Source: a virus. From it: DNA of 64,000 bases. Both the position numbers and the translations under genes were made by a program. The notes below the pieces were generated by a model. That model was not told where the DNA came from and did not search any database. It saw only the letters and a list, made by a program, of their open reading frames with translations. Positions 11,839-32,264 of the stretch are shown in pieces. Numbering within the stretch: the stretch's first letter is position 1; each line of letters starts with the position of its first letter. Where the stretch lies: positions 124,001-188,000 of the IMG/VR virus record IMGVR_UViG_3300028384_001500; one strand, 5' to 3'.

Positions 11839-12242
11839 TACTTATTTTTATATTTTCTTTTTGAATGCAACAGATCTTCTTCATGCCCGTCAACACCGTG
11901 TGACTCATGTGCTTCACCTAAATCATCGCTGTCTTTTACTTTCTCTAGTAAAATTGCAGGTATGTCAGTCTCAATTCCAATGCTAGGCCATTTTACATCA
12001 TATATTGCTATATGACCGCTTTCGTCCAGGCTGTGCCAGAGCACCTTTCCTATTTCATTTAAAGCAGAATCCTTCCGCTTAACATGAGTTAGTCATGTAT
12101 GGCCAATAATGTCATCAGCTGACTTGTCTCTTTTGGTTACATGGTCTAATCCGTAAGAGAACCCTTGTTCTTTACTAGCATAAGAAAGCCTATCTAATTC
12201 TTCTTTAATCAAACTTTTTAATTGGTTTTTTGTTAATTTCAT
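11838..12242 (-). pseudogene. Tagged gene interrupted by one in-frame UGA (or readthrough gene)
   Basis: Translation from the ATG at 12242 gives MKLTKNQLKSLIKEELDRL and stops after 49 codons at a TGA (12093-12095). The same frame then continues without any stop for 84 more codons to a proper stop at 11838-11840, ending in a Lys-rich tail. No frameshift is needed. The N-terminus carries the shared cargo tag, with LIKE as predicted cleavage site. The start overlaps the stop of the upstream gene as ATGA, like its neighbours. The UGA is followed by CUA, a weak termination context, and lies in a 6-bp inverted repeat (ACATGA/TCATGT). A single change from TGG (Trp) would also explain it. UGA is a genuine stop elsewhere in this window. 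The alternatives are a recent nonsense mutation, a sequencing error, or programmed readthrough. Confidence 0.6.
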
Positions 12243-12574
12243 TTTTTAGGCCCACCTTCTGTATATCCTGTGCAACTATTTGTTGCTTTACAAGAAAAGC
12301 CAAATGCGTGACAAAAAGCTGATGATTTATTCTTTGCAGTTACACCCGCCTCAATAGCTTCTTTTGATATATCATATGCAGCACAAGTTTTACAATATTT
12401 AACTTTGCCAAATTTATCTTCTAAAAACTCTTTTAAATCTTTGCGTTTTTTAGGATTACCGTATTTAGCATTTTTAATTGCTTTTTGTTTTCCGCCTTTG
12501 ACTTTCTTAAATGCATTGGCTTTTTTAGCAGCTTCTCTAATTAAATATTTTAGCTGCCCTAATGTAATTCTCAT
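12239..12574 (-). CDS. Small basic Cys-containing protein with capsid-targeting-like tag
   Basis: 111 residues beginning MRITLGQLKYLIREAAKK, a clear member of the tagged set, with predicted cleavage after LIRE (E14). The next 40 residues are strongly basic (KKVKGGKQKAIKNAKYGNPKKRKD). The C-terminal half has five Cys residues (CKTC, then C, C and C), enough for a small metal site or disulfides. Function is unknown. Its ATG overlaps the TGA of the acetyltransferase-like gene upstream, and its own TGA overlaps the ATG of the interrupted gene downstream, so the three are almost certainly co-translated. The basic middle would be suited to DNA binding inside the capsid. Confidence 0.75.
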   Translation of the reverse strand: MRITLGQLKYLIREAAKKANAFKKVKGGKQKAIKNAKYGNPKKRKDLKEFLEDKFGKVKYCKTCAAYDISKEAIEAGVTAKNKSSAFCHAFGFSCKATNSCTGYTEGGPKK

Positions 12575-13863
12575 TTTTTCTTTCTCATTCTTTTTGTTTT
12601 CTTTTTGCTAGCTTCTTTACGCTTTTTTGCATACTCGTATGCTTTTTTAAGACGCTTTTTCGTAGCAGGATCTTTTGCATTTTTATACGCAGCTCGTACA
12701 CGCTGGTGTATAAGATTAATTATCTGTGACTGTCGCTTATGACTTTTAGATTTAAAACTTTTTTTAGATAGCGTTTTTTTAATATCAGAAGCGGTTTTAA
12801 ATTTTACAGACACAGTATCCTTAGGATTTTCGTCTGTGTAGAGTCTTCTTCCACTACCTTTAGGTTTTTTACCTGTACCTACCTTTGGATCTTTTTTTTT
12901 TGACTCGCGCAAGTTTTCTTTTTTTGCTTTTTCTCGATTATAGGCTTCTATTTCTTCCGGGGTAGGTGAATTATTAAATGCATCTACAAAGTCAGATCTT
13001 CTGGTGCCTTGTATTCGATAATCGTCAAAATATACATTGTCTGTCCTAGATGTAAGCATGTTCCACACTTCTGCCATGGATTGTATACCTCTTTTTCGCC
13101 AAGAACTGGTTGTTCCAAAAGGATTGCGTGCCATGGCAGCAGCAGACTCAGGTGAAACTCCATTATAAAAGACGTCGTCAAGAACACCTTCCTCGTGGTA
13201 TAATTCTGAATAACAATCGTCATCCGGATCAGGTGTTAGGCCAAAAAAGTCCATTTCGTCACTTCCTTTCGCTGTGGTCTGCTTATAATACACACCTTGA
13301 TTCTCAGGAGCATTAACTTTAGAGTCAATAATGTTATTAATGACATCAGTGTTTCCACCTTCAAAGTCAGTTGTTATACCAGCTGGTGCAATTGGTGCGA
13401 CAACCTCACAATAATAAAAAATCAGGTCAAACATTAGATCGCCAATACCTCTGTTTTGGGCATTTACAGAAGTATAAATTGAACTAACTGAATATGTATT
13501 TGGTATACATTTAGCATCATGCCAGTATCTTACTTCTCCGTCTTCGTCTGCACCAACGGCGTCTTCTTCAACGCCCGGGCCTAATTTTCTTATGTAATGT
13601 ATTCTTTGATCGACGACTTCGTCATCTAATACTTTTAAAGGGTGTCCTTGCAATTGTCCTGTCAACTTAGTTAAGGTCGCTGACGCAATCAAGTCCCCTC
13701 CGTTAAAAAGGTCAAGTATTGTGATCTCTTCGTTGCCGTCATCTAAAGTTTCTTGATATCTTAAAGATAGACTAGGTAACGCTGCTAGTAGACTGTCATG
13801 TTGAGTAGTCTCAAGTATTATCTTTCTGATTGATTCTCTGATAAGTTTTCTTAATAAATTCAT
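12571..13863 (-). CDS. GNAT acetyltransferase-like protein with tag and Lys-rich C-terminal tail
   Basis: 430 residues. The N-terminus MNLLRKLIRESIRKIILE is a short form of the cargo tag, with an IRE cleavage site after E10. Around residues 126-150, SSIYTSVNAQNRGIGDLMFDLIFYYCE has the Q-x-x-G-x-G acetyl-CoA loop (Q136, G139, G141) and flanking strand and helix of GNAT N-acetyltransferases; the N-terminal part is divergent. From about residue 310 the protein becomes extremely Lys/Arg-rich (GTGKKPKGSGRRLYTDENP and onward), as in DNA-condensing tails. A second LRE site (E320, then Ser) sits exactly at the border, so a prohead protease could release the basic part. The substrate of the enzyme domain is unknown. 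Confidence 0.75.
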   Translation of the reverse strand: MNLLRKLIRESIRKIILETTQHDSLLAALPSLSLRYQETLDDGNEEITILDLFNGGDLIASATLTKLTGQLQGHPLKVLDDEVVDQRIHYIRKLGPGVEEDAVGADEDGEVRYWHDAKCIPNTYSVSSIYTSVNAQNRGIGDLMFDLIFYYCEVVAPIAPAGITTDFEGGNTDVINNIIDSKVNAPENQGVYYKQTTAKGSDEMDFFGLTPDPDDDCYSELYHEEGVLDDVFYNGVSPESAAAMARNPFGTTSSWRKRGIQSMAEVWNMLTSRTDNVYFDDYRIQGTRRSDFVDAFNNSPTPEEIEAYNREKAKKENLRESKKKDPKVGTGKKPKGSGRRLYTDENPKDTVSVKFKTASDIKKTLSKKSFKSKSHKRQSQIINLIHQRVRAAYKNAKDPATKKRLKKAYEYAKKRKEASKKKTKRMRKKK

Positions 13864-14763: not shown

Positions 14764-15102
14764 ATGAAACCCATCATCATTCAAAACAGCAAAATACCTG
14801 TTTATTTGTCAATATTTATTAGCATTGGTGCAATTACTCTGTTCCCTTTTATTATCTCACGAGATGAAATGAGCGAAACCACAATAAGACATGAATGCAT
14901 ACACATAGAACAACAACGTGAGCTCTGGGTTGTTCCTTTTTATCTACTATATGGTTTTTATTGGCTCAAAGGAAAGTTGTCAGGAATGACAAACGACGAG
15001 GCTTATATGAATATTCCGTTTGAACAAGAAGCTTATCGAAAAATGTATGACAAAGAGTATTTAAAAACAAGAAAGCGTTTTGCCTGGAAGGAGTATGTTT
15101 AA
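14764..15102 (+). CDS. Small membrane-associated HExxH protein (metallopeptidase-like)
   Basis: 112 residues and the only convincing plus-strand gene in the window. CCAGGAGGT gives a strong ribosome site and TATAAATA lies upstream. A hydrophobic segment (VYLSIFISIGAITLFPFII) is followed by RHECIHIEQQRELWVVPFYLLYGFYWL. HECIH is an HExxH zinc motif (H41, E42, H45 by count) followed by a second hydrophobic stretch. Small proteins of this pattern are widespread in T4-like and bacteroidal phages, often with no proven activity. No third zinc ligand is certain, although a later Glu (EQEAY) is in the right area. It converges on the tagged gene at 15947, with overlapping stop codons. It may act at the membrane in late infection or lysis. 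Confidence 0.75.
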   Translation: MKPIIIQNSKIPVYLSIFISIGAITLFPFIISRDEMSETTIRHECIHIEQQRELWVVPFYLLYGFYWLKGKLSGMTNDEAYMNIPFEQEAYRKMYDKEYLKTRKRFAWKEYV

Positions 15103-15950: not shown

Positions 15951-16484
15951 TTAAATCCATTCATCGCTAAAACTATCTTCTTCAATATCAGGTGTCCATC
16001 CCGGGCTATATCTTTGAATTGCTGCGTCGTTTAATTCACCCACATATCTTCCATCGTACAAGTCTTCAACATCAATAATATGTGTAAAGGGAGCGAATCC
16101 AGGACGAGGTGTTCTTAAAAGATTAAGAACTTCACCAACTAAATCCTCGTTTTCTGGATAATGATTTTGTCCTAGAGAATTGTCAAACCTCTTTTGCTTA
16201 ACAACTAGACTTACACCGTTTGGAGATCTAGGTGGCTTAGGTATCTCTATGTGTGTTTCATAAACACTTAAGACTTCACTAAACATTTGTGCAAACTCAA
16301 GTGTGGCAAAATCAGGGTTCTGTATATACGTAAAAAGATAACCGTTTGGTCCGGGCTGTTGATATATGCTAACAGCTCGCATGCCTGGCTTTTTTAAGTG
16401 AGGTGGAAAGTTAACTGGGTATGATTCATAGCCACCAATAGACTCAAATATTAACTTTCTTAACTGTGATATTGTTATTTTCAT
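15951..16484 (-). CDS. Tagged protein of unknown function
   Basis: 177 residues beginning MKITISQLRKLIFESIGGYESYP, a textbook example of the shared tag, with predicted cleavage after LIFE (E14). The mature part is Pro-rich and probably globular (YPVNFPPHLKKPGMRAVSIYQQPGPNGYLFTYIQNPDFATLEFAQMF), followed by VSLVVKQKRFDN and an acidic C-terminus. No enzyme motif is recognised. It sits nine bases downstream of the metalloprotease-like gene, which suggests co-expression. The short size and defined globular section would suit an injected effector or an inhibitor of a host enzyme, but this is only inference from the tag. Confidence 0.7.
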   Translation of the reverse strand: MKITISQLRKLIFESIGGYESYPVNFPPHLKKPGMRAVSIYQQPGPNGYLFTYIQNPDFATLEFAQMFSEVLSVYETHIEIPKPPRSPNGVSLVVKQKRFDNSLGQNHYPENEDLVGEVLNLLRTPRPGFAPFTHIIDVEDLYDGRYVGELNDAAIQRYSPGWTPDIEEDSFSDEWI

Positions 16485-16493
16485 TGGAATCTC

Positions 16494-17888
16494 TCAAGTA
16501 AGTTGCATGTATTGCTCAAATTTTGGTCTTAAAGAATGTACAGGATTCATACCTATTTCTGCTTTAAAGGCTCCATTCTTCCATTTTTTAATTTCTATTT
16601 TTTCTAAACTAAAATATTCTTTAAATATACCGTACCTTTTAATAGCGTATCTAAACCATAATCCAACTAGTTTATTGCATAATTCATTATGTCTGTCTAG
16701 CAAGCTTTGCAAGTCTATTCCAATTTTTTGCAAACTATATGCATCTTCATACATTGCTTTAATTTGATCCTGTCCTTGCTTTTTAATTTTGTTAATACTT
16801 TCTTGACATCTATTGTAAAAGTGATTAATAACACTGGACTTTCTTTTAAAAGATATATCTTTTTTTGTCATATTTTTGTAACTTGCCTTTTCATGTTTAT
16901 TAGTGGTACTTGATCGAATACGTGCAACTCTCATCATTCCCACTACCCATGCTTCTATTTCTATCTTAGTAAAATAATAATATACTAAAAAGAGTGGTGG
17001 ATTACGATACTTATTATATGAATCAAATATCACAGGAGATAATCTTAAAAAATCTTCTGCCAAATAACCTAGCTGGTCTTTGATTGGCGAAATTCTTTTT
17101 ATACTTTTTACAAAATCATTAGTTTTTTTCAAAAAATCACGATCGTGAAGTTCTCCCATTTTGTCAACCACTAGCATTTCTCGTTTAGTTTTTAAATAAA
17201 ACGACTTGACCAGACTAGAATACTTCATTAATCCTTCACTCTCATCATATTGCCTATCAAGATAACTTATTTCGCTAGCCTCGGGAGCGTCTCTTAAATC
17301 AACTTTATTAAACTCATTAGATTGCTTAAAGTGATGTATTTCATGAAAAGCAGTTGATTGGAATTGTTCAATTACTTCATTAATACCACCGTAATTGTTT
17401 CTTTCTCTGTCATCAAAGGCTGCAAAACCTGGATGTATTCCAAGCGTCAAAGTTAATGTATTGTCGTAAGGGTTGTATCCACCACCACCCGGGAAGAACT
17501 TAAGACCTTCTAAAAAACCCGCGCTGTTATATCCTGAATAACGAATCTTAATTTTTAAGCCATCAAGTTTGTTTATAGATGAATTCTTATTCAGTGTTTT
17601 CTTTTTTGCGTTCTCTAATATTTCTTCACTTTCTTCTGATAGTTCTGAAAAAGCGTTTTTAATATCGTCAGTTACTTTTTTGTAATTTCCGCTATCTAGA
17701 TTACTCTCCAACCAAAAGTCTGTCGATTTTACATTTTTATTTAATGATTCTATTTTTTTAATTTTTTCTACTATCGCATTGATAGTTTCCCGGACAAGTA
17801 TTCCAGTACCTTGAGCGTCTCTCCTGGAAGCTTCTTTTAAAACAGATTTACATATTAATTTTCTCAATTTACTTCTTGTAATTTTCAT
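16494..17888 (-). CDS. Tagged HEIHH metalloprotease-like protein
   Basis: 464 residues, MKITRSKLRKLICKSVLKEAS. The tag is present; the usual LIxE is LICK here, but LKE followed by Ala (after E19) gives an alternative cleavage site. Residues 178-188 read STAFHEIHHFKQ, an HExxH zinc-protease motif (H182, E183, H186) in a helical context. Before it, a Gly-rich segment (FFPGGGGYNPYDNTLTLTLG) resembles the beta strand that lines the active-site cleft of such proteases. The C-terminal 250 residues are helical and basic, and may bind a substrate or DNA. Its start overlaps the stop of the kinase-like gene as TAATG. The third zinc ligand is not certain. Nearest known idea: a virion-packaged protease delivered to the host. 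Confidence 0.75.
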   Translation of the reverse strand: MKITRSKLRKLICKSVLKEASRRDAQGTGILVRETINAIVEKIKKIESLNKNVKSTDFWLESNLDSGNYKKVTDDIKNAFSELSEESEEILENAKKKTLNKNSSINKLDGLKIKIRYSGYNSAGFLEGLKFFPGGGGYNPYDNTLTLTLGIHPGFAAFDDRERNNYGGINEVIEQFQSTAFHEIHHFKQSNEFNKVDLRDAPEASEISYLDRQYDESEGLMKYSSLVKSFYLKTKREMLVVDKMGELHDRDFLKKTNDFVKSIKRISPIKDQLGYLAEDFLRLSPVIFDSYNKYRNPPLFLVYYYFTKIEIEAWVVGMMRVARIRSSTTNKHEKASYKNMTKKDISFKRKSSVINHFYNRCQESINKIKKQGQDQIKAMYEDAYSLQKIGIDLQSLLDRHNELCNKLVGLWFRYAIKRYGIFKEYFSLEKIEIKKWKNGAFKAEIGMNPVHSLRPKFEQYMQLT

Positions 17889-18697
17889 TAGTAGGCCCCT
17901 TCTACACCACCGTCAATTATAACAAACCGGCCATCTTCTAGGCTTCTTCCAATATTTCCGTAACCTAGATCATTAATGTCATTTTCACTCATAACGTGCA
18001 ATAATAATTGCATGTCCGGGCAATTAAGAATTAAACTTTTTATACTTTCCAACCCTATACTTTCAAGCATACCAGTAACATGAGAATTATTAGCAAACAT
18101 ATAATTAGTCACTGTATTTAACCCATCATTAACAATTTCTTCAATTGTCCAATCGTCATAATTTATATCGTCAGGTAGAAAGGTCATAAATATAGACCCT
18201 ATTAATGAAATATTACCGGTAGTATTGTCAGAATATCGGTTAAATTCTTGCGATAATCTTTGCATACTTTTAAAGCTGCTAATAACTGCTTCTCCTAACC
18301 CATAAGGCGTGTGGATAGGAGGTGTGTTTTCAACAATAAGCCATCTAAACTCTGGGTCATGCACATAAACCTTTGGAAATATTTTGGTATAGCGGTTAAA
18401 TAAATCTATTTCTTTTTTATTGTATTTTACACCGCTATCGTTTCCTATGTCAATGTGAGCAACTTTTGCGACTAAGCCAGGCCGTCCATTAATTTCATAG
18501 ACACCGCGATAACTACCTGCGCCAATATTATCACCAATATTTTCCTCTAGCCAGCCGGGTAATTCTGGATATAGTCTTGAGTCAGCTTTTTCAGGATTAT
18601 CCATTAAACGAGTAATAGTTGGGCCAAAATGCTTTCTTTCTCGATCTGTAAAAGACTCCCATATTAATTGCTTTAACTGACTTCTTGTTATTTTCAT
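17888..18697 (-). CDS. Tagged protein-kinase-like protein
   Basis: 269 residues beginning MKITRSQLKQLIWESF, with predicted cleavage after LIWE (E14). The rest shows the order of a protein-kinase-like fold: a Gly-rich loop GAGSYRGVY (59-67), a Lys strand LVAKVAH (K78), a helix Glu (KKEIDLF, E96), a hinge-like strand WLIVENTPP (119-127), a catalytic-loop-like DLGYGN (D243, N248) and a metal-binding strand VIIDGG (D262). The spacing between D243 and N248 matches HRDxxxxN. The protein is small for a kinase, and the lower lobe is reduced. It could phosphorylate proteins or be a pseudokinase; D, N and D are all present, which favours activity. It overlaps its neighbours by TAATG, inside the run of tagged genes. 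Confidence 0.75.
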   Translation of the reverse strand: MKITRSQLKQLIWESFTDRERKHFGPTITRLMDNPEKADSRLYPELPGWLEENIGDNIGAGSYRGVYEINGRPGLVAKVAHIDIGNDSGVKYNKKEIDLFNRYTKIFPKVYVHDPEFRWLIVENTPPIHTPYGLGEAVISSFKSMQRLSQEFNRYSDNTTGNISLIGSIFMTFLPDDINYDDWTIEEIVNDGLNTVTNYMFANNSHVTGMLESIGLESIKSLILNCPDMQLLLHVMSENDINDLGYGNIGRSLEDGRFVIIDGGVEGAY

Positions 18698-19386
18698 TAG
18701 TAAAATACGCCGTGTTGATTTGCAACTTTTTCAGGTAGCTTGTTAAGTCTTTTCATGGTAGGACTAAAATCGCCTTCTTTGCCAGAAACGATATTCATAA
18801 GCCTGTAATAGCCAGGGATATTTTGTAAAGTTTCAATAACATCCCAGTATTCTGGATAATCAGACGACTTAAGTAGTTCTTTAATCTCTACATTCATTTG
18901 ATGTTCAATTTGATCAACATGCTCGGTATAGTCTGTTTTTCCACCGTAATATGGGCTACCTTTTTGAAGGGCTGTATTATCTTTATAAGAATCTCCAACT
19001 TCTATCGCATCAAATGCTTTATCCATTTCATCATGTGCATAATCTCTTAGCGCTAATTCATCTTCGGTAAATCCAAAAGGTTTAAATTCACCTTGATCAC
19101 CAACCATGTCAGCCAATTGTACACCTTGATTCATACTAGCTATTTGTTTTTCATCAAAAGACGATCGTCCACGAGAGTCTATACCGTGTTTTAATCTATC
19201 TGGGGCAAAAGATCTAAGTCTTTCATCACTCTGTGCGTCTAAAAAGTCTTTTTTTGCATCGTGAGTGTGAAAAGCTTTCATGTGAGGACTACCTGGATCG
19301 TTAGTAGTGTCAAATGCATCACCTTCTGGATTAACATAAATTGTTTCTTTGATAAGTTTTCTTAATTGCTTTCTTGTTATTTTCAT
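18697..19386 (-). CDS. Tagged acidic protein of unknown function
   Basis: 229 residues if translation starts at 19386. A longer in-frame reading from 19464 is rejected because the tag MKITRKQLRKLIKETIYV begins exactly at 19386 and that ATG overlaps the upstream stop as ATGA. Predicted cleavage follows LIKE (E14). The mature part is acidic and rich in Asp, His and Gly, including KAFHTHDAKKDF and HGIDSRGRSSFDEKQI, and a C-terminal helical part (VEIKELLKSSDYPEYWDVIETL). No known motif is seen. It directly precedes the kinase-like gene and overlaps it by TAATG, so the two are probably translated together and could act on the same target. Confidence 0.75.
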   Translation of the reverse strand: MKITRKQLRKLIKETIYVNPEGDAFDTTNDPGSPHMKAFHTHDAKKDFLDAQSDERLRSFAPDRLKHGIDSRGRSSFDEKQIASMNQGVQLADMVGDQGEFKPFGFTEDELALRDYAHDEMDKAFDAIEVGDSYKDNTALQKGSPYYGGKTDYTEHVDQIEHQMNVEIKELLKSSDYPEYWDVIETLQNIPGYYRLMNIVSGKEGDFSPTMKRLNKLPEKVANQHGVFY

Positions 19387-20016: not shown

Positions 20017-20616
20017 TTAATATTCTTCTGAGTCTTCTTCAGGGTCAATTCCAATTGGCTCACCTTTTTTATTTAACATTTTTGGCATTCGAATGTCTCC
20101 TGATGTTAAAGCTTCAAATCCCACGTTAAATTCACTGTATCCGGATTTAATCTCAATATCAAATTCTGCAGCTGCTTGGATCGGTATCTCTGTAATTGCT
20201 CTAAATGTTGCTACGTATTCATTGTAAGGCATGCCGTAACCCTTGATACCCTTCAAGCCGTTCGAATAAGACAGATTTAATTGTTCACCTATATAATTAA
20301 ATAAGATTTGTACACGAGGAATGCTAGAAGTATTTCCTCTTTGTACGCTATAAGGGACTTTATTGTCATCTACATATTTCATTGCTAAAATTAAATCTTT
20401 TACCAGCATCCGATAGAGATCAGGTTTGTATTTAATAAGTGGGTGTATTAGCTTGATAGCATGTTCCATTATTTTGCCAAAAAATAACGCTGACAAAAAG
20501 GGTGGATAAAGTAATGCATTATATGGGGTTTGCTGCACAGACTCCGGATCCCAAGACATCAATTTAATTTGATCATATCCGTCTTCAATTACTTCAAGAC
20601 TAGAAAGCTCATCCAT
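20017..20616 (-). CDS. Conserved-looking helical protein of unknown function
   Basis: 199 residues from the ATG at 20616 (MDELSSLEVIEDGYDQIKLM). An in-frame TTG two codons earlier is also possible, because the start overlaps the TGA stop of the upstream 811-residue gene by a few bases and no Shine-Dalgarno is evident. The protein has a mostly helical N-terminal half (ALFFGKIMEHAIKLIHPLIKYKPDLYRMLVKDLILAMKYV) and a beta-rich C-terminal half, ending in an acidic tail (DPEEDSEEY). There is no targeting tag and no recognised domain. Translational coupling to the WCT-motif gene suggests the two work together, perhaps in the same particle. Confidence 0.65.
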   Translation of the reverse strand: MDELSSLEVIEDGYDQIKLMSWDPESVQQTPYNALLYPPFLSALFFGKIMEHAIKLIHPLIKYKPDLYRMLVKDLILAMKYVDDNKVPYSVQRGNTSSIPRVQILFNYIGEQLNLSYSNGLKGIKGYGMPYNEYVATFRAITEIPIQAAAEFDIEIKSGYSEFNVGFEALTSGDIRMPKMLNKKGEPIGIDPEEDSEEY

Positions 20617-23044
20617 CGGCAAATATTTTATAAGCAGCTTTGCCAGGTCTACTTGAAATACTGTTTATCATTGTTTTGTAAGATTCCTTAACGTCCTCAG
20701 GTTTATTCATGTAACGCATATAATATTGAATCTGTTCTGCAGGATCTGGTATAAAATTCATTTGTTGCACAACACCGCTATCAAGCAATTCTTTTCTAAA
20801 TGGCGTTAATATCCTGCACAATTCTGTATAGTACTTTGTAAATTCAGATATAGCTTTAGATGTACCGATATCAAAACCCGGTATTTTGGCTAGTACAGGC
20901 AACAGATCTCTAAAGACATAATTATACTGCGTGCGAGACCTTAAAAGTGCATCTGTTGCCAACTCAATTAACTCTATTGCCCTAGGAGGAAGTTCGTAAT
21001 CACCTTTAATATGACCCATTATAGGAAAGTGCATCTTAGGTAAAATTGATGCACCCATTTTTATCATATCACCGTCAATATCACTTCCGCTAAATCCATA
21101 GTCTTCTGCTTTCTCAAAAGTCTCTTCCATGATAGGTAAAAATTTATCAAGAATATATTTTTTAACTTCGACACTACTGTTTCCATGATCAAGCATGTTT
21201 TTCATGGCACTAACTAATTCCTTAAGTGCATCAGACATTTGCTTGGACTCAGGTGTAAGATAAAACCCAAATATTTCTTGGATCCTATCATTTAGAACGT
21301 CATCGAATTTACCTGCAAGTATCATTTCTTCAAATTTGCGGTGTGCAGTTCCGACTTGATAGGAACCTGATGTTAATCGCTTTAAAGACTCTGAAATTGC
21401 GGGAATTAACCATGGCAGCTTATGATTGTGAAGAATGCCTTCCATGTTGTCGGTTACTTTAGAAATAAGTAGTTCGCAAATTGATGGATTAAAAACGACA
21501 GATGAAGCGAAAAAATTGGTAAAGAGATTTAAAGATCCTCCTGTAGATCTAAATTGGGATTTTGGTACAAAATCCCACTGGGTTTGATCAGTCATTGGTG
21601 GGTCAAGAAGACCACGCATTTCATAGTCATTTTTTAGTTTTTCAATTATATTATTTCTTTTGTCTTGTGACTCTTTTGAGTGTGGATCAAAAAGAAGGTC
21701 GTCAGTTAGAGTGAGATATGCAATACTTTCTTTAACTTTTTTACTTACTTCTGCATGCGCAGAGCCGATTAGCGATATAACAATATATGGGAATATTCCT
21801 TCTGTTGCCAATTCTGACTGAGCCATTCTGCTGTCTTTAACACGCGGTACATTTCTCATGTAGATATAGTCTAAAACAGAAGAGCTAAGATGAGTACTTC
21901 TAAGAACATTCATTACAAAAGCCATTCGATGGTTTGGTTCAGCTAGTGTTGATAAATGTTCTTTAAAGACTGTTTTGTTTCTTGCACGTGCTCTCAAAGG
22001 TTTTATATCTTGCATACCTATATTTTGTTGCTGTGCCCTATCCTCTTGTGACACACTAGAACCTTCTAAGCCTCCCGGGCCTTTAACAGCAAAGTGACCT
22101 TTAATGTATCTAATTATTTTCTGAGTTGTTTCAGGACCTAAAACTTGAATAAGACTGTCTTCTGTGACGCCATGCTGATTTCCCCAGACACTGGCACCTC
22201 CTGCATTACCAGGAAGCACAATACTGTCTGGGCCTGACCCATTAAAACCAATTGAAAAATTATCATTATATACATTTGGATCATTATAACACTGGTGTTG
22301 TGGGTATAAATTCCTATTGTCGTAAGGCCTGTCAGGTTTTTGTTTGGCTACGTAGTAAAGTGTAATACCTTGTCTAGTATAAGTTTGCCAATGTCCTCCA
22401 TAAACAGTACACCATGCGTTAACACCAATTGCTTGAGCACCTGCCATTGTGTACGGTCTAAGAATATCCCAACCGTCGATTTCCATGTGTCTAATTAGAC
22501 CTAATCCTCCAGAGACGTCTTCGTTTAAGTCCCCACCAATTGCAGCATATTTTTGCGCAATTGCTTCCTCAGCTGCCAATTTAGCATTACCAGAGGAATC
22601 TTCACCTTTAGTCGCTACTCTGTCTTTGCCTACTAGTTTTTCATATGCTTTATTGTTTTTTTGTATAAAGCGAGCATCAATATCGTCAATAATCCCGATT
22701 AGTGTTTTGTAATCAGGAATATTATTAGGATCTAGGTACTCATCGGGTAACACACCTTTTTGCTGGGAGTACTTTTCATGCATAAGCACACAAAAAATAA
22801 TTTGTCCATAGCTAAAATTTTGATATAAAACAAAATTACCGGTCTCATCAGATATAAACTGCCCTATCATTTTATCTAAAAAGCGAAGATACTTGTTTTT
22901 GTTGCGTATCATATTAATCGCTTCTGCATATCCGTACTCCGGCTTATTCATTGCTGGGTATTTATCTAATATGTCTTTGGCTTTAATTTCAAGCAACAAA
23001 GCTTCAAAAATAAGTTTTCTAAAAATTCTACGTGTTAATAACAT
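20609..23044 (-). CDS. Large tagged internal-virion-type protein with WCT motif
   Basis: 811 residues. The N-terminus MLLTRRIFRKLIFEALLLEI is a variant of the cargo tag with cleavage predicted after LIFE (E14). Around residues 190-232, DGWDILRPYTMAGAQAIGVNAWCTVYGGHWQTYTRQGITLYYV holds a W-C-T centred motif (211-213) followed by a segment ending in LYYV; a similar pattern (G-T-x-WCT, then Y...G.LY) recurs in internal and hypothetical proteins of many marine phages and has no fixed biochemical role that I know. The rest is largely helical. It is first in the tagged block, after a terminator at 23067-23091, and is co-translated with the gene at 20616. The Cys may be catalytic or structural. Confidence 0.75.
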   Translation of the reverse strand: MLLTRRIFRKLIFEALLLEIKAKDILDKYPAMNKPEYGYAEAINMIRNKNKYLRFLDKMIGQFISDETGNFVLYQNFSYGQIIFCVLMHEKYSQQKGVLPDEYLDPNNIPDYKTLIGIIDDIDARFIQKNNKAYEKLVGKDRVATKGEDSSGNAKLAAEEAIAQKYAAIGGDLNEDVSGGLGLIRHMEIDGWDILRPYTMAGAQAIGVNAWCTVYGGHWQTYTRQGITLYYVAKQKPDRPYDNRNLYPQHQCYNDPNVYNDNFSIGFNGSGPDSIVLPGNAGGASVWGNQHGVTEDSLIQVLGPETTQKIIRYIKGHFAVKGPGGLEGSSVSQEDRAQQQNIGMQDIKPLRARARNKTVFKEHLSTLAEPNHRMAFVMNVLRSTHLSSSVLDYIYMRNVPRVKDSRMAQSELATEGIFPYIVISLIGSAHAEVSKKVKESIAYLTLTDDLLFDPHSKESQDKRNNIIEKLKNDYEMRGLLDPPMTDQTQWDFVPKSQFRSTGGSLNLFTNFFASSVVFNPSICELLISKVTDNMEGILHNHKLPWLIPAISESLKRLTSGSYQVGTAHRKFEEMILAGKFDDVLNDRIQEIFGFYLTPESKQMSDALKELVSAMKNMLDHGNSSVEVKKYILDKFLPIMEETFEKAEDYGFSGSDIDGDMIKMGASILPKMHFPIMGHIKGDYELPPRAIELIELATDALLRSRTQYNYVFRDLLPVLAKIPGFDIGTSKAISEFTKYYTELCRILTPFRKELLDSGVVQQMNFIPDPAEQIQYYMRYMNKPEDVKESYKTMINSISSRPGKAAYKIFADG

Positions 23045-23468: not shown

Positions 23469-25418
23469 TTAGATTACATCCATATCCAAGCAAGTAACTG
23501 TTCCGTAGAAGTCGGCGCGAACCATTTTCTTTCCGTAACGAGTCATTACACCTTTTCTTGGTGTAAAGTCTTCTGGTGCGAAGATCGTTGGAGTTACGAT
23601 TAATGGTACGTACGGAGCATAGACGTATCCAGACTCTAAGTAAGAACCACCTTTGTAACCTACAAGGATCTTGTTGCGTGGGAAGTAAGGATCTTTGTAA
23701 ACAGTAAATCTGTTAGAAAGAGAACCAATTGCTTCAGCACCAATGTTAGAGATAGCTGCTTGACCTTGACCATCAATTTTGATAGAAGGCTTGTACAATA
23801 CAGAAGCTTCGAAGATAGTAGCAACTTCAGGCGAAACCACGATAAAGTTAGCAGAACCACGAAGTGTCTTTCTGTGAATTTCGTTTGCTACGTCGATGAT
23901 GGTTTCAACAAGAGTTTCATACCATTCACGAACTGTACCAGTGAAAGCAGGACCTGGGTTAAGTGAAGAAGTTCTAGCGATTTCTGCACCTGTTCTCTTG
24001 TTAAGGAATTTACCTGGAGAACGCGACCAGAAGAAGTTAGCACCTTTTGCTTCAACCAAGAGGTCGTTAAGGATTTCACGATCGATTTCCAATGCAATCT
24101 GCTCAGAAAGAATTTGAGTCAATTCAACTTCAGCATCCATTGAGTGATATGCATTCAAGTCTTGAGCGAGTTCTGGAGACCAGCGAGCTCTTAACTTACG
24201 AGTTGTAGCTGTAACAGCAATTGACTCGATCTTGATATCAATCTCTGGAATTACCGGTTCTGGTACAGAGTTAAAGTTAGACTCAAATGATGGAATAACT
24301 AAAGTAGTACCTTCGCCACTTGAGGTTTGATTTTGAACTGAGTCAGCAACTGGGAATGAAGCTGTTAAGTGCATTGCAGCATTTAAAACGTCAGCGTCAC
24401 CAGAAGCGCTTCCACCATCAGCGTGTTGCATCACCATCAAGATACCAGTGTTAGCAGCAGTAATGTCAGCTAATGGGTCTGGAGTAAATGTAATCGCATC
24501 ACGAGCACCAGACATAGTTCCTAACTGGTTAAGGCGTCGAACATTAAGAATATTAGTTCCGCCTTGGATAGTTGGACCAGGAACTGTGAAACCGTTAGTT
24601 GTAGTTTCAGCTGAGAAAAGAGCAACTTGCTTAACTTGAGTTGCGTCAAATCTTCTTTCAGTTGATGCATCTTCAATAACACGTGAAGCTGAAAGTACCA
24701 AGAAAGAGTACTCGTTGTCACCGTTGTTGATTCTAGTCAACAATTGTGGATCGAATTGTAGTAATTTAGCATCAGCACCGCTAGTTCCTGCTACGCCTGT
24801 AGAGCTAGCAGATTGAGCTGCACCAGTACCAAAAGAACCGATCATAGCAAGAGGATTTTCAGATTCAACCAATTTATAAGTTCCGTGAACTTTTGAGTAA
24901 GCTGTACCCACCAAATCATATTGACCACCAGTTGCATCAGAACCGGTACGAATAGACTTACCTACTGGATTATTATAGATTGAATCACCGCGTGAGTAAG
25001 TAGAAGCAACAGTATCGGTTAAGTTACCAGCTGCATCAACACCAGCATCACCACCAACGTCAGATCCGTAAGTGTAGTCTAAGTAGAAAAGAAGACCAGA
25101 TGGAAGTGACATAGGCTGGATAGATACTAATTCGTTAGCAACTAATCCACCGAATACACGACGTACGATTGGGAAAGCGATGTTAGTGAAACCATCAATG
25201 TTTGATCCACCGTTACCACCACCTAAAGTGTTTGCCTCACGAAGAACTTGTGCAGCTTGGTTTTCCATTAAGCGTGCCATGTTTTCGCGGCCGTGACCCT
25301 CAAGTCCTCTTAAAAGACCTGTGCGAGTCCATTTTTCTTGAATTCTGCTAGCTTCGGCACCTACGTGACGATCGCGAATCCCTTCAGTTAATTGATTTAA
25401 AGTAAATGATCTACTCAT
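23469..25418 (-). CDS. 23: Major capsid protein (gp23-like)
   Basis: 649 residues, compared with 521 in T4. The N-terminus (MSRSFTLNQLTEGIRDRH) is followed by a region rich in helix up to AAQVLREANTLGGG. LRE before Ala (E61-A62) fits the (L/I)xE cleavage rule of the gp21 protease and falls close to the T4 gp23 site at residue 65. After it, FTNIAFPIVRRVFGGLVANELVSIQPMSLPSGLLFYLDYTYG is a conserved gp23 signature, as is ARWSPELAQDLNAYHSMDAEVELTQILSEQIALEIDREIL and the C-terminal VYAPYVPLIVTPTI. Forms the hexamers of the prolate or icosahedral head. Strong AAAAGGAG ribosome site; strong terminator follows. Extra length is in the middle, consistent with an added surface domain. Confidence 0.95.
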   Translation of the reverse strand: MSRSFTLNQLTEGIRDRHVGAEASRIQEKWTRTGLLRGLEGHGRENMARLMENQAAQVLREANTLGGGNGGSNIDGFTNIAFPIVRRVFGGLVANELVSIQPMSLPSGLLFYLDYTYGSDVGGDAGVDAAGNLTDTVASTYSRGDSIYNNPVGKSIRTGSDATGGQYDLVGTAYSKVHGTYKLVESENPLAMIGSFGTGAAQSASSTGVAGTSGADAKLLQFDPQLLTRINNGDNEYSFLVLSASRVIEDASTERRFDATQVKQVALFSAETTTNGFTVPGPTIQGGTNILNVRRLNQLGTMSGARDAITFTPDPLADITAANTGILMVMQHADGGSASGDADVLNAAMHLTASFPVADSVQNQTSSGEGTTLVIPSFESNFNSVPEPVIPEIDIKIESIAVTATTRKLRARWSPELAQDLNAYHSMDAEVELTQILSEQIALEIDREILNDLLVEAKGANFFWSRSPGKFLNKRTGAEIARTSSLNPGPAFTGTVREWYETLVETIIDVANEIHRKTLRGSANFIVVSPEVATIFEASVLYKPSIKIDGQGQAAISNIGAEAIGSLSNRFTVYKDPYFPRNKILVGYKGGSYLESGYVYAPYVPLIVTPTIFAPEDFTPRKGVMTRYGKKMVRADFYGTVTCLDMDVI

Positions 25419-25455: not shown

Positions 25456-26919
25456 TTATAAACCTGCCAAACGTTGCCATCTACTCAACTCATTGTTGGA
25501 AGACGTTGCGTTTGCCTGTGAAGAAGTAGTTGGGCGAGAAGAACTTCCAAAAACACGAGATTCTGAGATAGTGCTTCTAGTACCACCGGTACTTCTAAAC
25601 GTTTCAGTTAATGACTTATACAAAGATTTTGCTTCAGTCAAAGATTGTGCTTCATCCAAAGCCTTAATAACAGACTTTTTCTGACTTTCGTTAAGACTTT
25701 TGTTCTGCAACAATTTGTTAACATACAAAAGCTTTGCATTAAATAAATTGAGATCTTCCAACTGTTCACGAAGAGAATTAACAGCTCCTCTGTATTTATT
25801 CAGTTTCTCTGACTGAGATCGATTTTGACGTCTCAGCTGGCGAATTGCCTCGTTAAGCTTGTTGATTTGTGGTGGGTTTGTGAACACATCTTGTCCTTCT
25901 TTTCCGCCACCAAAAGCACCCTTAACACCTGCTTTTTTGTTGCCCGTTCCGCCATATGCACCGTTGACACCAGCTTTGCTGCCGCCTTTTCCACCGAAGT
26001 GGTGATCCATTTTACCTTCACGAACTAACCTTTTAACTCTGTTGATTTCTTGGCGAAGAACACGTGGATCAACATTAAAAACTTCGTCCAACTGTTCCTC
26101 TTCACCTTCCGGATCTTCCATGTCCATGCCTTCCATGTCATCCATCTCTGGCATATCCATGTCCATGTCTTCCATACCCATACCAGCACCACCTGCACCA
26201 ACATCTAATTCAAGTTCTGCAATTAGACCTTCAACGGCAGCTGCAACTTCATCTTTTGAAAGCATTGCATCGTCGCCCATGTCTTCACCTTCCATGTCGT
26301 CCATCTCTGGCATATCCATGTCAGCGTCCATTTCTGGTGCTTCTTCTTCGTCTTGTTCTAATAAAGCTGAAAACTGCTCATAAAGTTCTGCCATTTCATC
26401 TGTCTCATCGATGTCATCTTCGTACATGCCCATGCCTTCGTTTGCTTCTTCAGCTTCTAATGATTCCCTTAATGTTCTAAGGTCAACTTCGTAATATTTT
26501 CTAGACATTTTTTCTCCTCTTTTGCTAGATAATTTATTAGCACTTTCATCAAGCTTGTGCGATAAATTTAACAGCTTCTCTCTTTGGTTATCATCCATTG
26601 AGGAAACTGCACCTTTTACAGCACTAAAAAGTGCTTTTTGTGACTTAGACTCATTTAGAGAATCTAAATTTTCTTCACCAATTAAGTTGACTAAAGAAGC
26701 CAATGCTCCTTCGTCAAGATAAACTTCTTCGTCAAGGCTTTCAGAAGTGTCATCATCTTCTGTTTCTTCACTCTCTTTTTCACCTTCAAGCAGCTGCTCT
26801 TCAATAAACTCTCTAATTTGAGGAGTTACTGATTCAAGAATTGCTTTTTTCGCATTTTCTTCTGCAACTTCTTTAAGTTTTTTTGCGTCTGCAATTGCTT
26901 CTTCAAATAATTTGCTCAT
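25456..26919 (-). CDS. 22: Prohead scaffold protein (gp22-like)
   Basis: 487 residues starting MSKLFEEAIADAKKLKEV. I chose 26919 rather than an in-frame start at 26940 because GAGG lies just ahead of it and the usual scaffold start follows. The sequence is helical and very acidic, with Met/Glu/Asp-rich repeats (such as MDMPEMDDMEGEDMGDD) near residues 200-280 and a Gly/Lys-rich linker. The last part returns to helix (LNEAIRQLRRQNRSQSEKLNKYRGAVNSLREQLEDL) and ends in a Ser/Thr-rich tail. It lies between the head protease region and the capsid gene, as T4 gp22 does. It would form the inner core of the prohead and be degraded by the protease. The acidic part is an internal near-duplication. Confidence 0.85.
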   Translation of the reverse strand: MSKLFEEAIADAKKLKEVAEENAKKAILESVTPQIREFIEEQLLEGEKESEETEDDDTSESLDEEVYLDEGALASLVNLIGEENLDSLNESKSQKALFSAVKGAVSSMDDNQREKLLNLSHKLDESANKLSSKRGEKMSRKYYEVDLRTLRESLEAEEANEGMGMYEDDIDETDEMAELYEQFSALLEQDEEEAPEMDADMDMPEMDDMEGEDMGDDAMLSKDEVAAAVEGLIAELELDVGAGGAGMGMEDMDMDMPEMDDMEGMDMEDPEGEEEQLDEVFNVDPRVLRQEINRVKRLVREGKMDHHFGGKGGSKAGVNGAYGGTGNKKAGVKGAFGGGKEGQDVFTNPPQINKLNEAIRQLRRQNRSQSEKLNKYRGAVNSLREQLEDLNLFNAKLLYVNKLLQNKSLNESQKKSVIKALDEAQSLTEAKSLYKSLTETFRSTGGTRSTISESRVFGSSSRPTTSSQANATSSNNELSRWQRLAGL

Positions 26920-26959
26920 AAGATTAACCTCTGTATGCAATTAATTATTACGATATTTT

Positions 26960-28320: not shown

Positions 28321-28872
28321 TTATCTATTTCTAATTGAAGGTGCAAAAGCTAAATTGGCCCACTTGCTCGATGCGCCACCAAACAATTCTTCAGGTAAAG
28401 ACTGATCAACGACTTTTGCTGCATGATCTCCTTGTGCAGAAACTGCCGGGCCTGACGGTCTTGACCCTTCTTTTTGCTCCCTAAGTGTTGTTGCTGCTGT
28501 GTCTGCAAATATATCACTCATAATTGGATCGTCTGTAATACCTTGAACTGTTTTTGTTATAGCATCACTTCTATTATTTTTTGCTGCACTATCTACGCCC
28601 ATCTTAATAGAATCTAAATATGAAGGCCTTCTAGTAGGTCTAGGTTTTCTAGCACTTGTCACTTGTGTTGCATGGTGAGAAAGATTTGAGTCAGAAATAT
28701 TTCTTGTTCTAGTTTGCGGTGTAGAGTTTTCATATGCTTCATGCAAGGTACCTCTTAGTTCTCTAGCCTCGCTAAGTGTTGCAACATTATTTCCTACTAA
28801 ACCTTCTGCCAATATTTCAAGTAAGCATTCTTTGACAATTGATTTCATTGCCTTTCTTGTTTTATTATTCAT
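28321..28872 (-). CDS. Tag-like head-region protein
   Basis: 183 residues, MNNKTRKAMKSIVKECLLEILAEGLVGNN. The N-terminal basic amphipathic helix resembles the cargo tag, with two possible (L/I)xE sites, VKE and LAE (E23 followed by Gly). The middle is polar and Arg/Ser/Thr-rich, perhaps disordered, and includes ARKPRPTRRPSYLDSIKMGVD. A conserved-looking C-terminus reads QSLPEELFGGASSKWANLAFAPSIRNR. It lies one base after the protease gene, suggesting that it is a substrate or partner of the protease, an internal head protein in analogy with T4 internal proteins. The family is not recognised. Confidence 0.65.
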   Translation of the reverse strand: MNNKTRKAMKSIVKECLLEILAEGLVGNNVATLSEARELRGTLHEAYENSTPQTRTRNISDSNLSHHATQVTSARKPRPTRRPSYLDSIKMGVDSAAKNNRSDAITKTVQGITDDPIMSDIFADTAATTLREQKEGSRPSGPAVSAQGDHAAKVVDQSLPEELFGGASSKWANLAFAPSIRNR

Positions 28873-29475
28873 TTACCACCTCAGAATTTCATTAAACATT
28901 CTATCAATTTTATCTGTCTGGTTAAAAAATTTGTCTAAATCTTTTCTTTGTATCTTGTGTTCTTTAAGCATAAAAGCACCTGGCGTACTAGGTTCAGATA
29001 CCATATCAAAGCAAATTAATTGAAAATCATCTTGAACAACTTGGTTTCCACCTTTTGACACCGTCGAACCAACGCCTCTTGATGATATCCCTAAGGTTAC
29101 ACCACTTTCAATAAGCGACTGAATAATTTTTCCACTAGGTGTGTCTAAAATTTCAATTCTTCCGTATACGTCATCACCTTTCATATAGGCTTCTCTTACA
29201 ATATGGCTAACATTTTTAAGTTCAACTACAGAAGAGTCTGGGTGATCGCATTCACCTAATGCTCTATTTTCTCTAATCATTTTTTGATAATTCATAATTT
29301 CTCTTTCTAAAATAGGCCTAGGGTAAACTCTTCCGTTTTGGTTAAGTGTGTTTGCTCTCTGAATGACGCCTGATAACATTATCTTTCCACCAAACTTTTC
29401 TCTTGATTCTTTAATCATTTCTTTTGAACACTGGATAGGTGTCCATTCTCTTAAAACATTTAAATCATTAGCCAT
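28873..29475 (-). CDS. 21: Prohead core protease (gp21-like, peptidase family S78/U9)
   Basis: 200 residues. FGGKIMLSGVIQRANTLNQNGRVYP is the start of the protease fold; GECDHPDSS holds the catalytic His (H78), and TLGISSRGVGST holds the Ser (S131 or S132), in the order seen in gp21-type herpesvirus-assemblin-like proteases. A late Asp or Glu would complete the site (CFDMVSEPSTPGAFM). The enzyme is packed in the prohead, activated by self-cleavage, and cuts scaffold, capsid and internal proteins after (L/I)xE sequences. In this phage such sites are found in the capsid protein and in the tags of many accessory proteins. It lies between the 280-residue gene and the tag-like gene. Confidence 0.9.
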   Translation of the reverse strand: MANDLNVLREWTPIQCSKEMIKESREKFGGKIMLSGVIQRANTLNQNGRVYPRPILEREIMNYQKMIRENRALGECDHPDSSVVELKNVSHIVREAYMKGDDVYGRIEILDTPSGKIIQSLIESGVTLGISSRGVGSTVSKGGNQVVQDDFQLICFDMVSEPSTPGAFMLKEHKIQRKDLDKFFNQTDKIDRMFNEILRW

Positions 29476-29476
29476 G

Positions 29477-30319
29477 TTACTTTACCTCTTTTTTAATTTC
29501 TGATATCATTTTTGTAAGTGTTAAAAACTTAACAACATTTTGATCATCAACTTCTTGAGAAGAAAGTGTTTTAATTTTTTGTCTTACTTCGTCAAGTTTG
29601 TTTAGTAAATATTTGTTATCAGTTGTGTCTTCAAATTTTTCCAAAGATCTAAGTGCTTCTATTTTTTTAGTTTCAAAAAATTGCTCTAACTGGTTGTCTT
29701 TTTTATCAGAGAGAAACACATAACCTTCGATAATTCTTTTTTGATCGCTTGATAGGCTTCCTCCATAGTGTTTATTAAACTTTTCTGTCAATATTTTTAA
29801 AACTAAACGATCATTATGGGAAGCATTTATTTTATTTTCCTCATTTAAAGATACTTTTTCTTTTAACATGATCGACCCTAAGCGAGTTTCTAAATCAACA
29901 AGACTTTTAATATCTTTTTCTGACTTTCGCCATTCGTTCAGGGTTAATTGAATCACTCCTAAGTCTCTGTAGTTGTCAACATTTCTATAATAAAAATCTT
30001 TGTCTTTGATTTGGTAATTGATATCTTTTAGTAACATTGACTTTTGACGATCTAAAGTCTTTTCATTTAGCTGTTTGCTAGCAATCTTCGCCTCATTTAA
30101 AATGGAAGCAACAGTATGTGTATTTGTAATGTTAGATTGTGCCAGTGCATTAAAAAGTCTAAACTCTTTATAAAGGTCTGTCCCTTTTTTAAAATGCTTT
30201 TCAATAAGTTTTGTGGCAACTTTAGCTTCTTTCTTATTACCTTCAATTAATTTTGTAGCTACATGCTTAAGCAAAAGCTCGTAAACAATACCTACATTTC
30301 TTTTTTTATTATGTTTCAT
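29477..30319 (-). CDS. Helical protein between portal and prohead protease
   Basis: 280 residues, MKHNKKRNVGIVYELLLKHVATKLIEGNKKE, with a fully helical, charged sequence (Lys and Glu are the commonest residues). Proteins of this type are encoded between the portal and prohead protease genes in many marine T4-like phages, and T4 places gp67 and gp68 there; this one is longer. The overlap with the portal gene stop (11 bases) argues for translational coupling. It may be a prohead initiation or core protein. No motif points to enzyme activity. An alternative, that it is a packaging factor, cannot be excluded. Confidence 0.65.
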   Translation of the reverse strand: MKHNKKRNVGIVYELLLKHVATKLIEGNKKEAKVATKLIEKHFKKGTDLYKEFRLFNALAQSNITNTHTVASILNEAKIASKQLNEKTLDRQKSMLLKDINYQIKDKDFYYRNVDNYRDLGVIQLTLNEWRKSEKDIKSLVDLETRLGSIMLKEKVSLNEENKINASHNDRLVLKILTEKFNKHYGGSLSSDQKRIIEGYVFLSDKKDNQLEQFFETKKIEALRSLEKFEDTTDNKYLLNKLDEVRQKIKTLSSQEVDDQNVVKFLTLTKMISEIKKEVK

Positions 30320-32264
30320 CGTCTTCTTCTCCTGATGAATTATTCTCAGAAATTATTATAGAATTCGTTTTTCTACTACCATAAGTATTATCAAAACGCT
30401 GTAAAGTTGATTTTAATGTATCATTAATTTTTGCGTTAACAGAAATTTGCTCGTCAAGATATTTATCTAAATTAAAATCATCATCAGACTCAAGCAAGTC
30501 TTTTGCTGAAGGTGCTTTTATGGATTTTTTAAGATCATAATTTAATTTACTCATTCCTGCATCAATTTCTTGATCTCTTTTTCTAGTCTTTCCAAACTTT
30601 TTTACACTACTTCCGCCTGTATTTAGACTACTTCCTTTGTTAATAACTAAGTCTTCATCAAATTTATTTTCTTCGTCCTCTTCTAATCCATCAACGTTTA
30701 GTTCAATTAGTTTTTGAATTTTAACAGGAAGTTCGTCATCTTCAATTGACTGTTGCTCTGAGAGTGCGCCTAGGTCAATACCCCCTCCGCCTAGTTCAAC
30801 ATTACCTCCGTCAAATTGAGGTAGCCCGGCTGCTGGATTTTCTGGCCCATCAGGAGTAGTTAGTTGTGTTGCTTCAATTGAAAGATCACTTATTTTATCG
30901 TCTCTAAGACCTGATTGAACTGCTTCAATTTCTTCATCAGAAAGTCTTAAAATATTTTTTTGAACCCATCTTCTATCCACTAACCCTGCAGTTTGTAGTG
31001 CTGATGCTGCTGTTGTAAATCTTCCGTTGTAAAGCTCTAATTTTTGCTGCTGCGCGATTGTTGATGGGTTTGACAACATTAATTTAAAGTCTAATAAATC
31101 TTCATCACTAAAGCCATTACAATAAAGATGAACAATTGCTATCTTGTTCATTTCTGATAATACAGTTCTTTGAATTCTTGCAATTGTACGACTAAATCTA
31201 ATATCTTCTTGGGAGAGTGTTGCCTTAGCACCTAGACCTTCATCATAACCTAGATACGCCTTAGGTATTTTAAGTGCAGCAAACAATTTCTTTTGAATAT
31301 ATTCTACATCTTGTGTTTCTCCGGCGATAGTATCTCCGCCAAGAGGTTCAATTTTTGTACCACTATCTCCACCACGTACAGGAATAAAATAATCTTCATC
31401 AATTGAAAGTGGATTATATCTTAAATCCACTCGTCCAGTTTGCTTATCTACAATTGACGTGCGTTTTAACGAAGATTGTGCTTGTTCCATGTAGTTTGCA
31501 ACTTCTTCTGGCGGGACATTTCCAACATCAATGTAAAATATTCTACGACCTGGTGCTCTAACAATTCTGTGTACTAACATTGCGTCTTCTAATAAGATCA
31601 TTTGGCGCCAAATCCTTCTAGCAGGTTCTAGAACTGATGACCCGTACGGTAAAAATGCATCATTTCCTAAAAGTCTCATATGAGAAACTTGCCAATTTTC
31701 TAATACTTGATTACCTTGTGTCACCCATCTAAAACGAACTGCCATTGGATCATTAGGGTCAAAGCCCTCTTCTCTTTCTACTTCAGATATAGGCAATGGA
31801 AAACAGTTAATCACACCGTGTTTAGGGTGCACATCGTTAAATAAAAAACAATCACCATATTTAACTAAATTCCTAACCCAAGATGACATGTTAAATTCTA
31901 CATTAAGTGTATCATAAAACAATTCTGTAAGGATCTGTTGTATTTTAGAATTATCAGAGTAAATATGTAAAGTCTTACCTGCTTCGTCAGCTGACACTGA
32001 TTCTTCTGAATAAATGTCTAAAGCGCTAGCTATTTCAGGTGTATATTCCATTTCAGAAAAATCTGAATACCTTGCCATTCTGTCATAAGTTCCGTATGCA
32101 GACATTGCGTTGCTATAAACCGTTGACTGATTTTTCTTAAATTGATCAAACGCTGATGATGTGTAGTTTTTATCTGTGTTTTTAAGCACGTTTCTTCTTA
32201 CAACAGGCCCACTTCTAAATAATCGTGTCAGTCTTTGAAAGAGATTTCTATCATTTTTTGCCAT
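30309..32264 (-). CDS. 20: Portal vertex protein (gp20-like)
   Basis: 651 residues. The N-terminal part has NLFQRLTRLFRSGPVVRRNV, then YDRMARYSDFSEMEYTPEIASALDIYSEESVSAD, the characteristic portal entry, and later SRTIARIQRTVLSEMNKIAIVHLYCNGF, GAKATLSQEDIRFS and DGPENPAAGLPQ. These agree in order with T4 gp20-type portals, which are about 524 residues; the additional length is an acidic C-terminal tail rich in Asp and Glu, perhaps for scaffold binding. The portal makes the dodecameric channel at the head vertex and docks the terminase, whose gene lies nine bases upstream. Confidence is high by sequence and synteny. Confidence 0.93.
   Translation of the reverse strand: MAKNDRNLFQRLTRLFRSGPVVRRNVLKNTDKNYTSSAFDQFKKNQSTVYSNAMSAYGTYDRMARYSDFSEMEYTPEIASALDIYSEESVSADEAGKTLHIYSDNSKIQQILTELFYDTLNVEFNMSSWVRNLVKYGDCFLFNDVHPKHGVINCFPLPISEVEREEGFDPNDPMAVRFRWVTQGNQVLENWQVSHMRLLGNDAFLPYGSSVLEPARRIWRQMILLEDAMLVHRIVRAPGRRIFYIDVGNVPPEEVANYMEQAQSSLKRTSIVDKQTGRVDLRYNPLSIDEDYFIPVRGGDSGTKIEPLGGDTIAGETQDVEYIQKKLFAALKIPKAYLGYDEGLGAKATLSQEDIRFSRTIARIQRTVLSEMNKIAIVHLYCNGFSDEDLLDFKLMLSNPSTIAQQQKLELYNGRFTTAASALQTAGLVDRRWVQKNILRLSDEEIEAVQSGLRDDKISDLSIEATQLTTPDGPENPAAGLPQFDGGNVELGGGGIDLGALSEQQSIEDDELPVKIQKLIELNVDGLEEDEENKFDEDLVINKGSSLNTGGSSVKKFGKTRKRDQEIDAGMSKLNYDLKKSIKAPSAKDLLESDDDFNLDKYLDEQISVNAKINDTLKSTLQRFDNTYGSRKTNSIIISENNSSGEEDDET

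Follow-up and report, generated by a model that had tools for sequence, protein, structure and literature searches.

A tagged minimal kinase-like protein as a candidate head-packaged enzyme of a large uncultured T4-type phage

A 237-kb T4-type phage, represented by a virus record of 236,652 bases, encodes a single kinase-like domain, and the protein that carries it is probably, with moderate confidence, a phosphotransferase that is packaged in the phage head and injected into the host. The gene lies in the window, a 64,000-nt part of this record, where it occupies positions 17888–18697 on the minus strand and combines a short tag, a spacer and a minimal kinase fold in 269 aa. The original prediction had placed the protein at these positions, and the reading frame was confirmed: the ATG stands at 18697 and the stop ends at 17888, while the plus strand there is rich in stops. 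The tag belongs to a family shared by many ORFs of the record, the protein is homologous to kinases and is encoded in the context of head genes, and the combination of tag and kinase recurs in other phages. Packaging, cleavage, injection and action on the host are proposed by analogy with T4, only the sequence facts being observed.

All residues on which the original prediction had based its proposal of a kinase-like fold are present at the positions it named. The Gly-rich loop GAGSYRGVY spans residues 59–67 (18497–18523, minus strand, as for all features of this gene), followed by Lys78 (18464–18466), the predicted ATP-binding lysine, and Glu96 (18410–18412), a candidate helix-C acid. Further downstream, the predicted catalytic loop D243-L-G-Y-G-N248 (17954–17971) precedes D262-G-G (17906–17914), a putative DFG-like metal site. 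In an alignment of 13 sequences from diverse relatives, G61, R64, K78, N93, N248, G250 and D262 are invariant; an acidic residue (Glu or Asp) occupies position 96 in 12 of the 13 and position 243 in all of them, the latter being Glu in ten. The window kinase keeps Asp at 243, whereas most tagged relatives have Glu, and its DGG at the DFG position differs from the DSS or DAS found in most of the other aligned sequences. The features that define the kinase superfamily, namely the Gly-loop, the VxK lysine, the catalytic-loop acid and Asn, and the Asp of the DxG motif, are thus present in order and conserved, and since these motif positions are kept across 13 diverse relatives, the set cannot be attributed to chance.

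Searched as a single sequence, the window protein matched none of the Pfam families, Pkinase and PF18762 included, at E-values up to 10, and it had no relative in the viral contigs, no match in the phage collection and no meaningful relative in the PDB. On its own it matches only phrog_4301, over residues 53–264 (E=7.8e-12). A family profile of eleven sequences gave 845 PDB matches at E up to 10, the best 60 of which were all kinases, with STK24, MKK4 and STK4 at the top (best E=1.1e-6); seven of the 11 members of this profile, phrog_4301 relatives among them, match Pfam Pkinase. When the profile was restricted to the tagged type, the best 60 matches were again all kinases, nearly all of them CK2 (best E=0.0012), and the HRD aspartate of CK2 fell on position 243.

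An AlphaFold model of the window kinase built on the 13-sequence alignment reached a pLDDT of 81.9 and a pTM of 0.80, replacing a model from two sequences with a pLDDT of 33. The tag residues were of very low confidence or disordered, as expected for a flexible appendage. Comparison of the model with the PDB yielded kinase folds for all 50 best matches (best E=6.7e-4), including aminoglycoside and methylthioribose kinases, PsiK, IRAK4, BRAF and MST3, and the viral fold matches comprised the RaK2 and CBB members as well as kinases of podovirus-like phages. The TM-scores of the PDB matches are low (~0.3), and the arrangement of the lobes is therefore either divergent or imperfectly modelled. Profiles, model and fold matches agree in supporting the kinase-like fold predicted for this protein; structure prediction had been proposed as a check on the claim, and each of the 50 best PDB matches of the model was a kinase fold. 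It is highly improbable that the motifs match by chance in a protein that is not kinase-like: the failure of the protein alone in Pfam and the poor two-sequence model would fit such an explanation, but the residues are invariant across diverse relatives, and two profiles and the 13-sequence model all lead to kinases.

In the fold comparison with the PDB, APH(2'') enzymes and methylthioribose kinases rank highest, which raises the alternative of a small-molecule kinase, packaged or not, whose substrate in the host would be a metabolite, a nucleotide signal or a drug-like compound. This alternative is considered unlikely. The sequence profiles favour protein kinases, TM-scores of this size do not separate the two kinds of enzyme, and the substrate-binding C-lobe of APH, which follows the catalytic loop, is missing in the window protein.

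The chain stops seven residues past D262, and the usual C-lobe helices are therefore missing; the protein thus has neither the activation segment nor the C-lobe helices that follow the DFG motif in canonical Hanks-type kinases. In the model, about 100 residues of helices precede the catalytic loop. The absence of a C-lobe after DxG and the Glu at position 243 of tagged relatives go beyond what the original prediction had observed. Both bear on the possibility of a tagged pseudokinase, which would be packaged and injected and would bind a nucleotide or a host protein without phosphotransfer, acting as a decoy or inhibitor. Although Glu stands at position 243 in 10 of the 13 tagged or related sequences, the DFG motif reads DSS, DAS or DGG and the activation segment is missing, this reading appears unlikely for the window protein, which retains Asp243, Lys78, Asn248 and Asp262, in a group where position 243 is always acidic. 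Loss of the C-lobe is also compatible with activity; in the kinases of polyvalent proteins, which are without the usual C-terminal subdomain, the active-site residues are reported to be retained (Iyer et al. 2017, PMC5512222). Few members of the group are as canonical in sequence as the window kinase, and its phosphotransferase activity is plausible; the tagged relatives mostly have no catalytic Asp, which makes activity across the group less likely.

For the polyvalent-protein kinases, delivery together with the phage DNA has been predicted, and the class of proteins to which they belong also contains MPTase, Nudix and GNAT domains (Iyer et al. 2017, PMC5512222). The window protein resembles the corresponding family, Kinase-PolyVal (PF18762), in that the C-terminal subdomain is lost and the active site kept. 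It differs in having no match to PF18762 and in being a short stand-alone ORF with a T4-type tag. In addition, it has neither the Gln of Kinase-PolyVal in the last strand of the N-lobe (residues 119–123 are WLIVE) nor the His and the insert that come ahead of the catalytic Asp in that family, no His preceding D243.

A likeness at the sequence level is found in phrog_4301, members of which occur in RaK2-, 121Q- and Munch-like jumbo phages, several of them annotated as putative protein kinases. Those of the RaK2/121Q-type jumbo phages (Munch, Muenster, SE_PL) belong to the same sequence family and have the same compact kinase core, but they are ~195 aa long and untagged, with the canonical Asp at position 243 and mostly DYG or DFG. 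In phage Muenster, the untagged gene lies within the terminal repeat, and in phage CBB, a second kinase-like gene (gene 444; L147:1-555, plus strand; profile E=1e-15) directly precedes the phrog_4301 member. An untagged homologue, gp500 of phAPEC6, is not named in the paper listing 62 virion proteins of that phage. The untagged members and the absence of gp500, taken from a single proteome, fit weakly with a distinction in which packaged versions of the protein are those that bear the tag. Phage proteins annotated as kinases, some of them from Pantoea and Pectobacterium phages, are also among the viral fold matches; compared with the window protein, such T7-type kinases are larger and match weakly (E about 3e-3). 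T7-type kinases are made from the genome early in infection and are not known to be packaged. Effector kinases of the OspG/NleH kind are small, are without much of the C-lobe and are delivered into the host cell, in their case by type III secretion into eukaryotic cells.

The classic case of an enzyme packaged in a phage head is T4 Alt. It is ejected into the host, which it modifies (PMC9026906). In Alt and the other T4 internal proteins with a capsid targeting sequence (CTS), as in the present phage, a short N-terminal peptide ending in L/I-x-E is shared by otherwise unrelated proteins, and a gp21-family protease is encoded in the genome. The T4 CTS and the window tag differ in sequence, and Alt is an ADP-ribosyltransferase, whereas the window enzyme, a predicted cargo of the head, has a kinase-like fold.

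The tag of the window kinase, MKITRSQLKQLIWE, comprises residues 1–14 (18656–18697) and ends L-I-W-E|S, with a predicted cut after E14; the spacer that follows (residues 15–54, 18536–18655) is partly kept in a relative, L186 (K.FG..IT.L..NP). With variation, the tag is found in 21 of the 228 ORFs of the record, as against a mean of 0.6 and a maximum of 3 among permuted N-termini (200 permutations). A profile of the other 20 tags scores the N-terminus of the window kinase above all 5000 of its shuffles, and a strict form of the tag pattern has two matches in the window and none in 100 shuffles. The last residues of most copies are L/I-x-E, the cut consensus of T4 gp21 (PMC9026906), and the residue after it is often Ala, Ser or Thr. 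A search of the viral contigs with the strict pattern retrieved 100 stretches. An S77 protease is present in 12 of the 24 tag-bearing contigs longer than 60 kb, including all eight longer than 140 kb, compared with one of seven contigs from false pattern matches, a rough, small and biased control set.

On the evidence of its genes, the record represents a large uncultured T4-type phage with a T4-type head, since genes for the large terminase (32274–33899), the portal protein (30309–32264), a prohead protease of the Peptidase_S77 family (28873–29475; T4 gp21 family, E=2.1e-27), a scaffold-like protein (25456–26940) and a gp23-type major capsid protein (23469–25418; phrog_138, E=6e-74) lie on the minus strand from 33899 down to 23469. 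The scaffold-like protein is recognized by position and composition, with no PHROG match. Between it and the protease, a small conserved protein (28321–28872, minus strand), with IVKEC[LI][VLI]EILxEG near its N-terminus, is a probable prohead core protein. The capsid protein contains a cut-like site, LRE|AN, and L[RK]E|x, which by analogy with T4 may be taken as the cut site, occurs in 60 of 61 related capsid proteins. A 20-kb part of the window had no nucleotide match in the phage collection, and the capsid protein is less than 60% identical to those of cultured phages, among which no close relative was found.

Within a group of tagged and overlapping genes, all on the minus strand, the kinase gene follows the major capsid gene at a distance of 4.8 kb. 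It overlaps both neighbours at TAATG and is therefore part of a tightly packed run that has the same strand as the head genes. The previous gene encodes 229 aa from its tag ATG (18697–19386), and the next one (16494–17888) encodes a tagged protein of 464 aa with a HEIHH motif, peptidase-like by motif only; against Pfam, this protein gave nothing over the cut-off and a weak DUF2408 match below it. Further tagged proteins are one of 811 aa downstream of the capsid gene (20609–23044), one of 177 aa (15951–16484) and a pair of 111 and 430 aa (12239–13863), the larger with a GNAT-like motif by eye. In the same minus-strand region, a plus-strand ORF of 112 aa (14764–15102), rare in this orientation, has HECIHIEQQ and a hydrophobic start. 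The T4 late promoter TATAAATA occurs three times in the window where eight are expected and, being rarer than expected, provides no support.

The original prediction had called the tag a capsid tag, and this designation now has indirect support: the tag ends in a gp21-type cut motif, the phage has an S77 protease, tag and protease co-occur across contigs, and the gene lies behind that for the capsid protein, all of which suggests that the tag serves as a capsid signal. The tag might otherwise be an N-terminal handle of another kind, for a membrane, a replication site or a partner protein, with the kinase acting after its synthesis in the infected cell. Tagged genes do lie far from the head genes as well (e.g., at 24–31, 40–42 and 227–236 kb of the record). 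A resemblance of the tag to the start of the conserved core protein encoded next to the protease seemed good by eye but did not rise above shuffles in a profile test, and it was dropped as an argument for a capsid tag. Even so, a non-capsid handle seems quite unlikely given the L/I-x-E end followed by a small residue, the gp21-type protease, the gene run that follows the capsid gene and the L-x-E end that relatives with the second tag type also have.

Among the tagged genes outside the window, two adjacent ones of 764 and 763 aa (G000:C1:26415-31000; L003:6415-11000, minus strand) have near-identical starts and are a tandem duplication. Other tagged genes (G000:C1:68324-70078, also outside the window, L005:8324-10051, minus strand; L101:815-1996; L110:10405-11730) have a VYHG[ST] domain in common, which is present in several copies in record G016, joined there to LPxGLxVxGxL repeats. 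The tagged VYHGS protein is ART-like by motif only, with no database match, and its identification as an ADP-ribosyltransferase was not confirmed.

By iterating from tag and motif patterns, about ten tagged relatives of the kinase were found in other uncultured phages (P0002 (L094), L186, L227, L243, L250, L251, L280, L264/L255 and L168); a scan of genome contigs gave chance matches only. The protein of L186 resembles that of the window in tag, spacer and kinase alike (34% identity overall). Others bear a second tag type, MKLLxENWRKYLxE, and wherever a locus was inspected, further tagged ORFs surrounded the kinase; L255 has several ORFs in succession that begin MKLLMENWR. In some relatives the kinase is fused to further domains, recognized from motifs by eye. 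One protein of L251 (4001–5431, plus strand) consists of a tag, a kinase domain and a HELQH peptidase-like domain, the last 31% identical to that of L168. The 724-residue frame of L168 (5102–7273, plus strand) joins several cargo domains, with a tag-like start, a HELEH peptidase-like domain, a Nudix-like domain and a kinase, and a second tag-like stretch, MEKNVLEKIISRILTE, lies inside the chain. In L264 (13103–14419, minus strand) and L255 (7083–8411, minus strand), the tag MKLLMENWRKHLNE is fused to a GNAT-like and a kinase domain. Comparison of the HEIHH protein of the window with the peptidase-like domains of L251 and L168 did not demonstrate homology (16% identity, hhalign probability 2), nor did comparison of the GNAT-like ORF at 12571–13863 with the GNAT-like domain of L264.

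For the preferred reading, a head-packaged phosphotransferase, the following course of events can be envisaged. The 14-residue tag would recruit the kinase into the prohead core, where the gp21-type protease, judging from its consensus, would cut after L-I-W-E14. The mature protein, a minimal kinase fold beginning at S15, would be enclosed with the DNA and enter the host at infection, where it would most likely move phosphate from ATP to a host target, either a protein or a small molecule. Such phosphotransfer would precede phage gene expression and take place alongside the action of the other tagged proteins of the gene run.

Kinases packaged in phage heads have been predicted before, inside polyvalent proteins (Iyer et al. 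2017, PMC5512222). The original statement that no example of this tag on a kinase is established holds at the experimental level in the open literature, but it has to be qualified by that prediction (PMC5512222) and by the ten or so further tagged kinases. The open literature searched gave no description of a minimal kinase that stands alone behind a T4-type capsid tag and recurs with two types of tag. What is new here is the set of tagged relatives with two tag types, some of them fused to peptidase-, Nudix- or GNAT-like domains. A broader proposal, which is put forward tentatively, is that T4-type phages have a clade of minimal kinases that are packaged in the head by means of two interchangeable tags, the catalytic Asp being replaced by Glu in many of them, and that these, together with tagged peptidase-like, acetyltransferase-like and other enzyme-like proteins, form a capsid-loaded set of effectors by which the host is rewired ahead of all phage gene expression. 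A stand-alone tagged kinase recurring in several phages with two tag types would make phosphorylation another route of host takeover ahead of phage expression, and the tag would allow the head cargo of uncultured phages to be listed from sequence alone.
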